Assembly: GCF_017347585.1 (NCBI RefSeq) | Contig: NZ_AP024480.1 | Location: 2,068,001 to 2,132,000, forward strand | DNA: 64,000 bases | Direction of reading: 5' to 3' | Source: Caldicellulosiruptor diazotrophicus | GTDB taxonomy: Bacteria; Bacillota; Thermoanaerobacteria; Caldicellulosiruptorales; Caldicellulosiruptoraceae | Shown here: piece after piece, positions 12,638 to 18,209 of the stretch | How the letters are laid out: the number at the start of each line of letters is the position of its first letter | Numbering within the stretch: position 1 is the stretch's first letter | Notes under the pieces: generated by a model | Databases searched by the model: none | The model's input: only the letters and a program-made list of their open reading frames with translations | What the model was told of the DNA's origin: nothing | Translations under genes and position numbers: made by a program

Positions 12638-12799
12638 ATCTTTTCCCCCTGATACTTCTTTGTTTTTTTGCTTTAATATTTTACACCATTTTTTAATAGC
12701 AAGAAAATAATAATTTAATAAAGTCTTTGAGAAAATATATATTGAAAACTTAAAAACTACTGCTTATTCGACACTCAATCTAAAGGAGGCTTGAAAAAA

Positions 12800-14065
12800 T
12801 TGTTCAACCCGTTTGAAGAAAAACCAAAGCCGATTGAGAATTTTCTTATGGACTGGAAAACAATATATCCCAAGTCATATTATAAAAATAAAGTAGACCC
12901 TTACACAAAAACAAGGATAATTCTCATGAACGGGATTGAAGCTGAAGCTTTGATGTTTTCCCATCAGTTTCATCGTCACTGCACAGACAACAACGTAAGA
13001 CGCGATTTAGCAATGGTGAGAAGAACTGAGCAAATGCAACAAAAGCATATCAACTGGTTAAAGCCAATTGATGAAACACCTCTTGAAACTACAATAGGAT
13101 ATGAGCATGTAGCTGTAGACCTTACCGCTTGGCTTGCTCAAAACGAGCCTGACCCTTATGTTAAACAAACACTTGATTTTATTTTGCTTGAGGATTTTGA
13201 CCACCTTTATCGCTATGCAAATCTTCTGGACATGGATTCAAACATCCAAGCAAACAATCTGGTAAAAAACTATGTCGAAATCATTCCAGGCCGGCCGACA
13301 ATTGCGCATCACAGACATCCTTATGATACTGTCAGCAAATATGTTGATTTCAAAAAAGCAGATATTAGAACAAAGCTAAACATCTTTATCATAACAGCCG
13401 GTGAACAACAGACAATGAATTTTTATAACAATATTGGCAACACATATTATAACGACCTTGGAAGACAGCTCTACTTGGAAGTAGCCTTGGTGGAAGAAGA
13501 ACATGTAACCCAATATGGGTCGTTGATTGACCCGAGACTCACATGGTTCGAAAGTCTTCTTTTGCATGAATACACAGAGTGCTATCTGTATTACTCATTC
13601 TACGAATCTGAGGTTGACTCAAATGTAAAATCCATCTGGGAGATGCATCTTGATGCTGAAATTGCCCATCTTCACAAAGCTGCAGAACTTTTGCAAAAAC
13701 ATGAAAACAAATCTTGGCATGAAGTTATCCCTGGCGGACAGTTCCCAAATCTTTTAATGTTTCGCGATACACGTGAATATGTGCGTAAAGTTCTTTCCCA
13801 GATGGTTGAAATCACAGCCGACAAAGAAGACCTCAGAAATATAAATGATTTGCAAGACAACCACACATTTTTCTGGTTCCAGAACAAAGTAAATTATGAT
13901 ATAAATTTGGTTGCAAGCCATGTGGTAATTGATAAACACAAAACGGTAAAAGGTGAAGATTACAGGTGGGAAATGGCTCCACACCCAGTTGAAAGCTTGA
14001 GAAACAGAAAAGAAGACAATGTTTCAATTGGAAGAATAAAGCAGAAAAAACTTGTCAGCATATAA
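12800..14065 (+). CDS. Ferritin-like di-iron domain protein, uncharacterised
   Basis: About 421 aa with many helices rich in Glu and His in ferritin-like patterns: EAEALMFSHQFHRH, LEDFDHLYRY, VALVEEEHVTQ, HEYTECY, HLDAEIAHLH. These look like E/H ligands of one or two di-iron four-helix bundles. It is much longer than ferritin or rubrerythrin and lacks a rubredoxin domain. The start is TTG: TTG at 12791 is one base from SD AAAGGAGG, so the TTG at 12800 (10-nt spacing) is preferred. No membrane segment. Neighbouring bacteriohemerythrin suggests an oxygen, peroxide or iron role, but no reaction can be assigned. Confidence 0.72.
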   Translation: MFNPFEEKPKPIENFLMDWKTIYPKSYYKNKVDPYTKTRIILMNGIEAEALMFSHQFHRHCTDNNVRRDLAMVRRTEQMQQKHINWLKPIDETPLETTIGYEHVAVDLTAWLAQNEPDPYVKQTLDFILLEDFDHLYRYANLLDMDSNIQANNLVKNYVEIIPGRPTIAHHRHPYDTVSKYVDFKKADIRTKLNIFIITAGEQQTMNFYNNIGNTYYNDLGRQLYLEVALVEEEHVTQYGSLIDPRLTWFESLLLHEYTECYLYYSFYESEVDSNVKSIWEMHLDAEIAHLHKAAELLQKHENKSWHEVIPGGQFPNLLMFRDTREYVRKVLSQMVEITADKEDLRNINDLQDNHTFFWFQNKVNYDINLVASHVVIDKHKTVKGEDYRWEMAPHPVESLRNRKEDNVSIGRIKQKKLVSI

Positions 14066-14122: not shown

Positions 14123-14539
14123 CTATTTTGATTGCATCTTTTCTTTTAAAAAAGCTCCTAGTTTTCTATCTGTTCCAAGGATATGATTTTTGAGCCAGTC
14201 AACAACAAGCCTGTTTGTCTTTATAACTGCCGCAACTCCTGCTCCTTCTTTCTCTATCTCCTCTCGAAACTTTTTGTAAGTGTCAACAAAGTTATCATGC
14301 TCTCTTTTATGAGACAGATACTCTGGGTACAGATACTCTTTCATGTATTTTTCCTCAGTTGAAAAATGAAAAACAACATAATCACCTAAAAAGTCTAAAA
14401 CTTCTGGTAATACTTTCTTCCCCTCACCCTGAGCACAAGAATCTAACAGTTTATTAATTCTTTCAAAAAGTTCCTTGTGTTGATTGTCTATCGACTCAAC
14501 TCCTACCGAATATTGGTCAAGCCATTCTATTTGCGGCAT
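14123..14539 (-). CDS. Bacteriohemerythrin
   Basis: 138-aa cytosolic O2-binding di-iron protein. The canonical ligand set is complete: H21 and E25 (DNQHKELFE), H58 and E62 (FHFSTEE), H77 and H81 (SHKREH), H119 and D124 (NHILGTD). It is a single-domain protein without a signalling partner domain. SD GAAAGGAGTG precedes the ATG. It has its own promoter-like sequence upstream and lies next to the response regulator/HEAT/GT2 operon on the same strand. Likely roles are O2 binding, scavenging or delivery. Confidence 0.93.
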   Translation of the reverse strand: MPQIEWLDQYSVGVESIDNQHKELFERINKLLDSCAQGEGKKVLPEVLDFLGDYVVFHFSTEEKYMKEYLYPEYLSHKREHDNFVDTYKKFREEIEKEGAGVAAVIKTNRLVVDWLKNHILGTDRKLGAFLKEKMQSK

Positions 14540-14608: not shown

Positions 14609-16003
14609 TTACAATCTTTTTCTCTCAGGTTTTGACCAACCTTTCTTTCTAAGTATAGCTTCAAATGTACCAATAATTCTGAATAACACTGTCATCTGTC
14701 TGTAGCCGAAATTTTCTAATACTGCGAATAATATAAGTATTCCAAACTCTCTCCATTCTTCATACTTTCTTTCAGAAAATTCTCCAAGAAGAACTGCTAA
14801 AATAGAAATAATTATTCCGTACATTATCTCAACTGCAAAGAAAAATAAAGCCACTTCTAAATTGATTATGCGAGCAAAATACGAAATAGGTATAAAAATA
14901 TAACCCAACATCTCTACAAACGGCCCTAATAGTTCAAACATAAGCTGATATGGCATAGCAAAAAATCCTAATATGCCGTACTTAGGATTAAATAGAACAT
15001 CTTTATGCATGAAAATAACTTGGCAAAGACCTCTCTGCCATCTTCTTCTTTGTTTTGAAAGGTCATTTAAAGTCTCAGGACATTGTGTCCACACAATTGG
15101 ATCTGGCACAAACTCAACTCTGCCCATGATACCTTCTTTATATGAGTTTTTACGCAGTTTTACAACAATCTCCATATCCTCGCCAACAGTTTTATCAGAA
15201 AATCCTCCAACCTTTATAACAGCATTTTTATTGAATGCTGCAAACGCTCCAGACGCAATAACAAGACTTCCTAACATAGAAAGACCTTTCCTTGCGCCCA
15301 AAAACGCTCTCAAGTATTCTATTATCTGAAATCTTGCAAGACTTGAATTTGGTAGGTTTAATTTTTTTATATTCCCGAAAGAATCTAATTTGCATCCATT
15401 TACAATCCTTACAATACCTGTTGTGACTACAACTTCATCAGGGTTATCAAAAAATGGTTGCATAACCTTGGCTATTGAATCTCTTTCTAAAATCGAGTCA
15501 GCATCAAGTGAACAAATATACGGATACGTACATACGTTTATCCCAGCATTGAGAGCATCAGCTTTTCCTCCATTTTCTTTATCTACTACAATTAAATTTG
15601 AATATTTTTTGGAATAGTATATTGCTTTTACCTCTTTTGTTGATAGAATTTTTCTAAATTTCCTATCTACAATGTAAAGGTCAAATTCGCTTTTTAATAC
15701 ATCCAATGTCCTATCCTTTGACCCATCATTAATTACTACCACCTCATATTCTGGATATTCTATCTGTAAAAATGATTTTACAGATTTTGTTATTGTTTTT
15801 TCTTCATTGTATGCCGGTACTAACAGTGATACAGGCGGCGCAAAGTCTGATGAGACAATCTCTACAATTCTTCCTTTTATCTTATTTCTCGAGTAATTAA
15901 TGATACCAAAAAGAGAAATTAAGATTAAAATAGCATAAATAGTATTCAAAACCAAAACATAATAAGATACAAATAATGAAAACCAGCCTATTATCCGATG
16001 CAT
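14609..16003 (-). CDS. Processive glycosyltransferase family 2, membrane-bound
   Basis: 464 aa. N-terminal transmembrane segment (about 10-35), a cytosolic GT-A domain, then several C-terminal membrane helices (about 335-455). Conserved motifs: PAYNEE, NDGSKDRT (D93), DADS (167-169), GEDME (catalytic Asp 276) and QRRRW (318-322), the D,D,D,QxxRW set of processive synthases such as PgaC, BcsA and HasA. It should polymerise a UDP-sugar and extrude the chain; the best guess is a beta-linked hexose or N-acetylhexosamine polymer. No PilZ domain or deacetylase partner is seen. It is the last gene of the operon, 3 nt after the HEAT-repeat gene. Confidence 0.85.
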   Translation of the reverse strand: MHRIIGWFSLFVSYYVLVLNTIYAILILISLFGIINYSRNKIKGRIVEIVSSDFAPPVSLLVPAYNEEKTITKSVKSFLQIEYPEYEVVVINDGSKDRTLDVLKSEFDLYIVDRKFRKILSTKEVKAIYYSKKYSNLIVVDKENGGKADALNAGINVCTYPYICSLDADSILERDSIAKVMQPFFDNPDEVVVTTGIVRIVNGCKLDSFGNIKKLNLPNSSLARFQIIEYLRAFLGARKGLSMLGSLVIASGAFAAFNKNAVIKVGGFSDKTVGEDMEIVVKLRKNSYKEGIMGRVEFVPDPIVWTQCPETLNDLSKQRRRWQRGLCQVIFMHKDVLFNPKYGILGFFAMPYQLMFELLGPFVEMLGYIFIPISYFARIINLEVALFFFAVEIMYGIIISILAVLLGEFSERKYEEWREFGILILFAVLENFGYRQMTVLFRIIGTFEAILRKKGWSKPERKRL

Positions 16004-16006
16004 TTG

Positions 16007-17227
16007 TTATTCACTACCTCTTTCTTCAGTTATAAGATATTCAAATCCTTCATCGTTCAGTCTTTGATAAAAGCAGTATGGGTTAGACAATTTGAGTATT
16101 TTAATTATTTCTAAAGCTATATCTTTTTCTTGTTCAGTTCTGTAATTCAAAGCACTCTTAATAATATAATCAAAATTTTCTGGACTATAAAACACTTCTC
16201 TTAATTTGTCCTTTGCAAATTTATCGTTTGTTGAATAGTAAAATTTTAGAAGTTCATTTAATATAACTGGTCCAAATTCAGAAAGCATTTTTCTTGCAAA
16301 ATCTCTCATATAAAACCAGTCGTCTTCAAGAGAGGCAAGTAAATACTTTAATGAACTCTTAGGCGAAATATTGCTCAGCGCTCTTAATGCACGTAACTTC
16401 ACAAAATTTATTTTTTCGTTTTGTATAAGGGTTTCAAGTTTTTCTTTGCAGTTTCTACATCCTATTTTTTCAATCACTCTGCAAAAAGCTGATCTGACTT
16501 CTGCTGATGGATGGTTTATAAGAAAATCAATCTTTTCTAAATCATCTAATGCTGCAATCTCTGAAAATATATTCAAACATGATATTAGAACCTTGTCCGA
16601 TGGGTTTTCTTTTATGACGTATAAAATAATATCTTTTATTTTTTCACCACCAAAAACTGTAAAAAATTCCATTCTTCTTCTAACTGCATCTGGATATTTA
16701 TCAATGTTTAGAAAAATTGTCTTTAAATAAGGTTTAAAAATATTTAAATTTTGTATTTCATCTATGTTTTTGAAAATGGCTTCTACAGTTGTATCTATTA
16801 GATATGGCTCTTTAATACTAATTTTTAAAAGCTTTTTAAGATCATCTTCTTCGCCCACTATACTTATAACTTTTGCAAACCTAAGTTTTTGAACTTTATT
16901 ACCTTTTTGAACCATCTCAATAGCAATATTGAAAAAGTTCAAATTCTTTAAAGCTGTATATAGCCGATTTTTTTCTTCTCCATTTACCCATGAATAATAT
17001 ATGTTTATAATATCACTCAGAATGTAAATGTTCGAAGAATCAATATTATTTTTCTTTCCTGTTATTACATCATAGACATTTTCGCTATAATTCCTAAAAA
17101 TTTGCTTTATTTTTTTTTGATTTATACTATTTACAACTTTGTATAAAAAAACAACTCCCGAAGTTATAACTAAAAGAATAACAATAATAATAATACACAA
17201 GATAACAAAATTAATATTATTTGTCAT
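16007..17227 (-). CDS. Membrane-anchored HEAT-repeat protein
   Basis: 406 aa. One N-terminal transmembrane helix (about 6-31, INFVILCIIIIVILLVITSG), then a long alpha-helical region with HEAT-like repeats. The clearest are around residues 235-325: HPSAEVRSAFCRVIEKIG, KLRALRALSNIS, DDWFYMRDFARKMLSEFG. Such repeats form protein-binding scaffolds; no enzyme motif is seen. The start overlaps the response-regulator gene by 11 bp and the stop is 3 nt from the GT2 gene, so translation is probably coupled. The natural inference is an adaptor linking a phosphorylation signal to the membrane synthase. Confidence 0.75.
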   Translation of the reverse strand: MTNNINFVILCIIIIVILLVITSGVVFLYKVVNSINQKKIKQIFRNYSENVYDVITGKKNNIDSSNIYILSDIINIYYSWVNGEEKNRLYTALKNLNFFNIAIEMVQKGNKVQKLRFAKVISIVGEEDDLKKLLKISIKEPYLIDTTVEAIFKNIDEIQNLNIFKPYLKTIFLNIDKYPDAVRRRMEFFTVFGGEKIKDIILYVIKENPSDKVLISCLNIFSEIAALDDLEKIDFLINHPSAEVRSAFCRVIEKIGCRNCKEKLETLIQNEKINFVKLRALRALSNISPKSSLKYLLASLEDDWFYMRDFARKMLSEFGPVILNELLKFYYSTNDKFAKDKLREVFYSPENFDYIIKSALNYRTEQEKDIALEIIKILKLSNPYCFYQRLNDEGFEYLITEERGSE

Positions 17228-17984
17228 TTAATTCACTCCAAAGTTCTAAAACTTTCTTTAGAAGAATTAATCTTTTATTATCGCTCAAAATTTTGAATAT
17301 AAAGTAATAAGTCTCTCCCTTGGTATTAAGTCTTATAATCGAATAACTATTCAAATTTATTTTAATTTTATTCTCATCGTTTAAATAGCCAATAACCTTT
17401 TTAATTTCAAATTCACCAAAACCTCTGTTATAAATCACCTCTTTTGAGGTACTATTTAAAGCTAAGAAGCGATATGAAGCAAAATATTCCGATAAAAATT
17501 CATCTACAATTTTGGGAACTATAAAGATATGCTTGTTCGTCATTTCATTCAAAATAGAAATAAGATGTACAATCTCATTAACATGCAAATATTCATCCTG
17601 AGTATACAATAATGACCGTACCATATTATAAACTTCTAAAGTTGAAAAAGGCTTAGGGATAACTCCAATAGCCCCAAGCTCGTACGCTTTTGATCTTGTT
17701 GCACGGTGAATATTACTACTGAGCAAAATTACTGGAACGTGAGCTTTAACAGAACTTTTTTTAATAGTTCTCAAAACTTCAAATCCACTGATTTTAGGCA
17801 AGTTTGTATCTATTATTGCAACATGAATATTATTTTCACCAATTTTGTTCAAAGCTTCTTCACCATCAGCAGCCTCAAAAAATACAAAGTGATGTACTGA
17901 ATCAAAACAATTTTCAAACCTTTCAATTATTGCTTTTCTTATGTATTCATTTTCATCTGCAATCAATACATTTTTAACTATCAT
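17217..17984 (-). CDS. Response regulator with unclassified C-terminal domain
   Basis: 255 aa. Residues 1-120 form a CheY-like receiver: acidic D10/E11, phosphoacceptor D59 in IIDTNLP, S89/S90, and K111 in PKPF. The C-terminal 135 residues are not a recognisable DNA-binding, GGDEF, PilZ or enzymatic domain; they look mixed alpha/beta. The ATG at 17984 (MIVKNVL) has AGGAGA 7 nt upstream, better than the longer frame from 18011. It is the first gene of the operon, and no histidine kinase lies nearby, so the kinase must be encoded elsewhere. A protein-protein output acting on the HEAT/GT2 products is inferred. Confidence 0.82.
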   Translation of the reverse strand: MIVKNVLIADENEYIRKAIIERFENCFDSVHHFVFFEAADGEEALNKIGENNIHVAIIDTNLPKISGFEVLRTIKKSSVKAHVPVILLSSNIHRATRSKAYELGAIGVIPKPFSTLEVYNMVRSLLYTQDEYLHVNEIVHLISILNEMTNKHIFIVPKIVDEFLSEYFASYRFLALNSTSKEVIYNRGFGEFEIKKVIGYLNDENKIKINLNSYSIIRLNTKGETYYFIFKILSDNKRLILLKKVLELWSELNDK

Positions 17985-18055
17985 AGATTGTTCTCCTATG
18001 TTTAGTACCATCTTAATTTCTTATTACCCCTTGTTTTTAATTTAAAAACAACAAA

Positions 18056-18109
18056 AATAAAAACCCCTTTTTTTAAAACCATTAAAAGGTCCAAAAAGGG
18101 GTTTTTTTA
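18056..18109 (-). terminator. Terminator after tRNA-Leu
   Basis: On the minus strand, AAAAAAACCCCTTTTT pairs with AAAAAAAGGGGTTTTT and is followed by ATTTTTG. It ends the tRNA transcript before the response-regulator operon. Confidence 0.8.
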
Positions 18110-18121
18110 TTTTACATCTTC

Positions 18122-18209
18122 TGGTGCCGAAGGCGGGAGTCGAACCCGCACGGCCTCTGCGGCCACTGGATTTTGAGTCCAGCGCGTCTGCCAGTTCCAC
18201 CACTTCGGC
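18122..18209 (-). tRNA. tRNA-Leu (anticodon CAA)
   Basis: A full cloverleaf can be drawn: acceptor GCCGAAG / CTTCGGC, D arm with TGGCAGA, anticodon stem CTGGA / TCCAG with loop CTCAAAA (anticodon CAA), a long variable arm typical of class II tRNA-Leu, and T arm GCGGG-TTCGACT-CCCGC. Discriminator A and CCA are encoded (18125-18122). It reads UUG codons. Confidence 0.96.

Follow-up and report, generated by a model that had tools for sequence, protein, structure and literature searches.

Among processive bacterial synthases, those studied in depth are mostly controlled by cyclic di-GMP (c-di-GMP). Three adjoining genes on the minus strand of a 64,000-nucleotide stretch of the 2.6-Mb genome of Caldicellulosiruptor diazotrophicus (the whole stretch is called the window below) raise the question of whether such a synthase could instead be controlled directly by phosphorylation. 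The genes encode, in order, a response regulator (RR), a HEAT-repeat protein and a family 2 glycosyltransferase (GT2), and an earlier note on this DNA had read them as one operon making an exopolysaccharide under phospho-control through a HEAT scaffold. We found that the HEAT–GT2 pair and a receiver form a widespread module, of which the window carries a minimal copy with a lineage-specific regulator tail. We further propose, at a probability of roughly 0.6 and on the strength of sequence comparisons, that the trio makes a polysaccharide by the synthase-dependent route, with the HEAT protein as an adaptor that would couple receiver phosphorylation to GT2 activity.

All three open reading frames (ORFs) overlap or abut as the note had described: RR and HEAT share 11 nt, and GT2 starts 3 nt past the HEAT stop (Table 1). 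The RR start is an ATG at position 17984 with AGGAG just 5′ of it, and there is a further in-frame ATG at 18011. No histidine kinase, deacetylase or PilZ gene adjoins the trio, as had also been noted, and neither the neighbouring ORFs nor Pfam gave a co-polymerase of the BcsB, PgaD or Alg44 kind beside GT2; the sole PilZ match of the genome lies about 1.6 Mb away.

Among the 13 genomes of the bacterial family, the seven that have GT2 also have HEAT, and the other six have neither; the intact RR-HEAT-GT2 order is found in six of the seven: five of the genus, including that of the window, and one of a sister genus (G012). All genes flanking the trio differ in the sister genus, and therefore the three genes are a conserved unit. 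An IS200/605-like transposase ORF pair is inserted in the trio of G007 (L026, 5024-7776), where only 117 aa of HEAT and the C-terminal half of GT2 are left and the receiver lacks one of its acidic residues. The hemerythrin and DUF58 genes that flank the site are just ~0.6 kb apart in G004 and G005, leaving clean empty sites that align up to ~14639 and from ~18001 of the window with the stretch between absent, and G005 retains a degenerate stretch resembling the GT2 3′ end. A recent insertion of the trio by mobile DNA was also considered; the alignment of the empty sites and the GT2-like remnant make loss by deletion likelier. Based on the shared presence of the genes, the wreckage in G007 and the empty sites, we conclude that the trio is kept or lost as a whole. 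The hemerythrin gene (14123-14539), which the earlier note had offered as an O2-binding environmental control, occurs throughout the 13 family genomes, whether they have the trio or not, and is not adjacent to it in the sister genus, and hence we do not count it as part of the module.

The module extends far beyond this family. Genome contigs were searched with the GT2 alignment and the best 80 loci were kept, which span Bacillota, Pseudomonadota, Bacteroidota-type genomes (Balneolaceae, Ignavibacteria), Elusimicrobia, Margulisbacteria, Nitrospira, Aquificaceae, Solirubrobacter and others. A HEAT gene lies directly upstream of GT2 in 78 of these 80 loci, most commonly with a 4-nt overlap, and one of the two exceptions (L047) starts at a contig edge; 75 of the 78 HEAT proteins have an N-terminal membrane segment. 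A receiver gene is upstream in 60 of the 80 loci (27 immediately so) and directly downstream in five more, against a background of 24 receivers in 434 distant ORFs of the same contigs (5.5%). The phospho-acceptor Asp is retained in 61 and the Lys in 63 of these 65 receivers, and a stand-alone receiver is the usual form in most outer-membrane bacteria. The window trio belongs to the cassette so defined, as its HEAT gene immediately precedes a GT2 from this clade. At two loci (L157:4778-5677 and L158:5076-6011) a GGDEF-only protein stands where the receiver usually does, which suggests that the input domain has been swapped during evolution.

Because the first scan kept only the best 80 loci, we also ran an even set of 299 genomes of the phylum, counting GT2 matches with E<1e-140 as strong. 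All 23 intact strong matches have HEAT either next to GT2, encoded by the same strand, or joined to it in one frame, and in the 24th strong-match genome (G176) both genes are broken; three weak matches (E 1e-31 to 1e-47) have no HEAT adjoining in the HEAT table of this sample. A receiver-containing neighbour was present in 14 of the 18 intact clusters followed in detail.

The trio is also found outside bacteria. Three haloarchaeal plasmids (L164 Salinirubellus, L168 Haloarcula and L174 Halosolutus) carry receiver, HEAT and GT2 in order; a small ORF separates receiver from HEAT in one of them, and in one a GAF histidine kinase gene follows GT2 directly. The haloarchaeal receivers retain the catalytic residues and the HEAT proteins match the family profile. 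GGDEF was absent from all four archaeal control genomes, and this, together with the haloarchaeal trios, suggests that phosphorylation alone can be the input. The order thus recurs across the family, across phyla and in haloarchaea, and restriction of the unit to one genome, which the earlier note had named as a refutation, is not borne out.

The GT2 carries the D,D,D,QxxRW pattern that had been assigned to it. Pfam matches are to Glycos_transf_2 (94.2 bits) and Glyco_tranf_2_3 (86.3 bits), the motifs are D93 in DGS, D167 and D169 in DAD, GED at 274-276 (D276) and QRRRW (Q318-W322), and membrane segments lie at the N- and C-terminal ends, so that the marks of a processive GT2 synthase (D, DxD, (T/G)ED, QxxRW and membrane helices) are all present. 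The best NCBIfam match and nearest named family by score is the PgaC/IcaA poly-N-acetylglucosamine synthase (TIGR03937), likewise a membrane GT2 with D,D,D,QxxRW; however, the score is under the equivalog cut-off (161 of 422.3 bits), identity to E. coli PgaC is 26%, and the window operon has HEAT and a receiver in the stead of the PgaB/IcaB deacetylase and PgaD/IcaD. BcsA cellulose synthase is also a processive GT2, with PDB matches 5ej1 and 4hg6 to the window protein, which nevertheless lacks PilZ and scores lower against CelA (TIGR03030; 76.5 bits versus a cut-off of 699.1). E. coli NfrB–NfrA combines a GT2 with a TPR outer-membrane barrel under signal control (PMC8669469), as do the Gram-negative versions of the cassette. 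NfrB has a fused MshEN c-di-GMP domain and neither HEAT nor receiver, whereas the window GT2 is without MshEN or any further domain and can hardly be aligned to NfrB (E 0.11). At the E. coli yaiO-yaiP locus a YaiO barrel lies near a GT2, as in Gram-negative cassettes, and YaiP is 26% identical to the window GT2 over 301 aa, yet no HEAT gene is annotated there. By its defining features, the window GT2 is not PgaC/IcaA, BcsA or NfrB; by analogy, the cassette would work most like NfrB–NfrA among known systems. A tree of 117 GT2 sequences sets the HEAT-linked ones apart from PgaC, YaiP, NfrB and three unlinked GT2s, which is suggestive of a separate clade beside PgaC and, since the outgroup branches are long, no stronger than that.

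Hydropathy and an AlphaFold model bore out the description of the second protein as a one-helix membrane HEAT protein. The model has one N-terminal helix of ~54 residues, the first part of it hydrophobic, followed by an alpha-solenoid (mean per-residue confidence, pLDDT, 90.4), and the best Foldseek matches are generic alpha-solenoid, HEAT and ARM proteins. The profile match (HEAT_2, PF13646; 38.0 bits versus a cut-off of 27.7) and the modelled solenoid together place it among the HEAT-repeat proteins. In G187 and G085, HEAT and GT2 are fused in one protein, each with a GGDEF-REC (receiver) gene ahead, and based on such natural fusions and the constant pairing, HEAT is probably an obligate partner of GT2. 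In G059 the putatively secreted partner that adjoins HEAT–GT2 in other Bacillota is joined to HEAT by a membrane helix (733-769). Provided that this partner is secreted, as its signal-like N-terminus would indicate, the intervening helix suggests that HEAT is cytoplasmic and that the fusion ties it physically to machinery on both sides of the membrane.

The first protein has a complete set of residues for phosphorylation, with the acidic pair D11/E12, the phospho-acceptor D59 that had been predicted, a Ser at the Thr/Ser site and K111, and by sequence it is a phosphorylatable response regulator. Pfam found Response_reg (72.5 bits) and no output family. The C-terminal domain has no Pfam match at E<=1, and a profile of it run against all fetched loci matched solely the same bacterial family, so we rejected its assignment to a known family. 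Nor did it match a DNA-binding domain, an outcome that would have counted against the earlier note: Pfam gave no helix-turn-helix output family, NCBIfam matches were far under their cut-offs and mainly receiver-based, and no helix-turn-helix was seen in a low-confidence AlphaFold model (pLDDT <50 across residues 156-216). The receiver adjoins HEAT and is often without an output domain in relatives, which suggests that it acts by protein contact and not on DNA.

Extra parts in relatives bear on the likely product and on the signal. In outer-membrane bacteria a TPR/YaiO barrel (PF19413, TIGR04390) often lies between receiver and HEAT or beside GT2, as expected for a polysaccharide exporter. Sugar-nucleotide genes adjoin several cassettes: UDP-glucose dehydrogenase in Brevibacillus, glmS and a nucleotidyltransferase in Halosolutus, and elsewhere a nucleotide-sugar dehydrogenase and epimerases. 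The GT2 signatures, export barrels and sugar-nucleotide neighbours all speak for a secreted polymer. In several relatives the cassette has hybrid histidine kinases and Hpt proteins for neighbours. The order in Mesorhizobium is ATP-binding protein, REC, REC, YaiO, HEAT and GT2, with a convergent Hpt gene, and in the Thermoanaerobacterium-like G016 (L037 12269-16972) STAS, HATPase, SpoIIE-type phosphatase, GGDEF and HD genes of a stressosome-like kind lie just upstream of REC-GGDEF-REC, HEAT and GT2.

Common beside HEAT–GT2 in Bacillota is a secreted protein of 715-1075 aa of no known family (L149:8725-10875, L042:8645-11872, L147:6845-10090), which in L147 is fused to HEAT. We considered a known glycosidase, as the protein has the look of a TIM barrel by eye (WxxGxEW, EFG); no significant Pfam, NCBIfam or PDB match was found, and one member of the group is without the candidate acidic residues, which counts against that label. 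Unlinked homologues of 1050-1060 aa occur in the congeners G005, G006, G009 (split) and G010, with pieces in G012 (L185-L189), and none is present in the window genome; among congeners their presence tracks the trio imperfectly.

We favour the following mechanism. The GT2 would polymerise sugar from a nucleotide-sugar at the cytoplasmic face and extrude the chain via its own membrane channel. The HEAT protein, with one N-terminal helix in the membrane and a cytoplasmic solenoid, would bind GT2 and serve it as an obligate adaptor. The HEAT–GT2 complex would offer a docking site to the receiver protein, and phosphorylation of D59 by a histidine kinase encoded elsewhere would switch synthesis. 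Polymer production, direct contact between the proteins, which way the switch works and what the RR C-terminal domain does are inferred from the genes, as are the exopolysaccharide product and the scaffold role of HEAT that the earlier note had put forward.

Several points weigh against phospho-control of a polysaccharide synthase. The case is built on genes, and the polymer itself is still hypothetical. No kinase is adjacent to the trio in the window, and the RR C-terminal domain is without a known family, so that it may have another output. About 15 of the 80 distant loci have no receiver nearby, and the remaining four of the 18 clusters have GGDEF only (three) or neither domain (one). Furthermore, in many Bacillota (Bacillaceae, Thermoanaerobacterium-like genomes) a REC-GGDEF-REC protein holds the position of the receiver; since the receiver there is fused to GGDEF, c-di-GMP probably takes part and may be the true output in those genomes. 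For this reason the earlier contrast between phosphorylation here and c-di-GMP elsewhere was drawn too sharply, while the receivers of nearly all relatives, phosphorylatable by sequence, and the bare haloarchaeal trios argue for the part of it that concerns phosphorylation. These Bacillota arrangements would also suit a synthase controlled by c-di-GMP, in which HEAT or GT2 senses c-di-GMP from a local REC-GGDEF protein and the window lineage has lost the local cyclase and is supplied from elsewhere. E. coli NfrB, a GT2 under local DgcJ control (PMC8669469), offers a parallel. The window genome has six GGDEF matches and a single PilZ protein unlinked to the trio, so that c-di-GMP may be an input to the window trio, and a GGDEF-EAL protein (Pfam) is encoded at 22.3 kb of the window, although this candidate control link of the earlier note, a c-di-GMP phosphodiesterase, proved to be only a neighbour. 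We nevertheless consider control by c-di-GMP unlikely, as Pfam found no GGDEF, PilZ or MshEN domain in the window trio, most outer-membrane bacteria use a receiver by itself, and haloarchaeal trios have a receiver where the archaeal control genomes are devoid of GGDEF.

Two further explanations concern the product and the regulator. The GT2 could make a membrane glycolipid or glycosylate a surface protein, for which its 464 aa and the lack of an adjacent BcsB-, PgaD- or Alg44-kind co-polymerase might speak; the QxxRW motif, the match of PgaC and cellulose-synthase type and the YaiO/TPR export barrels of Gram-negative cassettes make this quite unlikely. It is very doubtful, too, that the RR controls transcription or some other protein in the conventional way and is just co-operonic with a constitutive HEAT–GT2 pair. 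A lineage-specific C-terminal domain of no known fold and the loci at which HEAT–GT2 lacks a nearby receiver are compatible with such an arrangement, whereas the absence of any helix-turn-helix or other DNA-binding match in the RR, and the many relatives in which a receiver without output domain stands at the same position, argue against it. Direct signalling from the phosphorylated receiver to the HEAT–GT2 complex is the reading that we favour. It is possible, and we would not go so far as to call it probable, that bacteria and haloarchaea share a class of synthase whose GT2 has a membrane-tethered HEAT solenoid for an obligate regulatory subunit, signalled directly by a phosphorylated receiver and independent of c-di-GMP, with REC-GGDEF-REC control as a later elaboration in some Bacillota.

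We found no published account of the receiver-HEAT-GT2 cassette as a system in the open-access literature, and subscription journals may hold one. The poultry necrotic-enteritis locus NELoc-2 of C. perfringens includes CP4_0466 to CP4_0468, which encode a 685-aa hypothetical protein, a 377-aa HEAT protein and a 466-aa GT2 (Lepp et al. 2010, PMC2879425). By the published annotation, on which alone the likeness is based, this gene order is that of the Bacillota cassettes described here; the three genes were annotated separately with no functional link, and no receiver was reported (PMC2879425). If our proposal is true, the cassette represents a large undescribed branch of surface-polysaccharide biology in many phyla and in haloarchaea, in which the GT2 has an obligate partner and is probably switched by a receiver. 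Many genes annotated just as "HEAT repeat domain-containing protein" or "glycosyltransferase family 2", those of the poultry-disease locus included, would then gain a function. With the cassette, direct control of such a synthase by phosphorylation becomes open to test in tractable and harmless hosts.

Table 1. Features of the trio and its upstream flank, in positions of the window.
Feature	Position	Strand	Basis
Response regulator, 255 aa: N-terminal receiver and C-terminal domain of no known family	17217..17984	-	Pfam PF00072 only; first trio gene in congeners and sister genus
Receiver domain with D11/E12, D59, Ser, K111	17610..17984	-	Signature residues; AlphaFold pLDDT mostly >90 over residues 1-129
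RR C-terminal domain: long helix 115-149, beta-strand pairs, final helix	17217..17609	-	Low-confidence AlphaFold model
HEAT-repeat protein, 406 aa: N-terminal membrane helix (residues about 2-35) and alpha-solenoid	16007..17227	-	PF13646, hydropathy, AlphaFold, Foldseek
Pfam HEAT_2 match, residues 234-309; best-conserved part across the family (VR..A repeats)	16301..16528	-	Pfam, conservation
Processive-type membrane GT2, 464 aa	14609..16003	-	PF00535/PF13641/PF13632, motifs, tree
GT2 catalytic domain, residues 56-325	15029..15838	-	Pfam PF13641 stretch
tRNA-Leu (CAA), upstream of trio: unit boundary, no functional part	18122..18209	-	ARAGORN

Upstream of tRNA-Leu there is a perfect promoter-like site at 18270-18242. 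Between tRNA-Leu and the RR gene, at about 18050-18110 of the window, we observed a terminator-like stem-loop with a T-run (CCCCTTTTT...AAAAAGGGG), which the scan tool did not list, probably owing to its long loop. Because this structure separates the two, the trio probably has its own promoter. In G001 (L193, 4763-11532) an element with integrase-like and replicative-helicase-like genes is located at the tRNA-Leu beside the trio site, and the sequence around the tRNA is duplicated on either side of the element; the tRNA-Leu is therefore probably an attachment site. On the other side of the trio, the plus strand of the window encodes a conserved 424-aa protein at 12791-14065 that has no Pfam match, is missing at the same place in G010 and is in pieces in G009. 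Downstream of some HEAT–GT2 pairs in relatives are homologous membrane proteins (L041:11543-13324, L159:3771-5474, L160:9741-11450), and those of L041 and L160 contain the motif HCYLGKHR, which is like the HCx5R signature of dual-specificity phosphatases.

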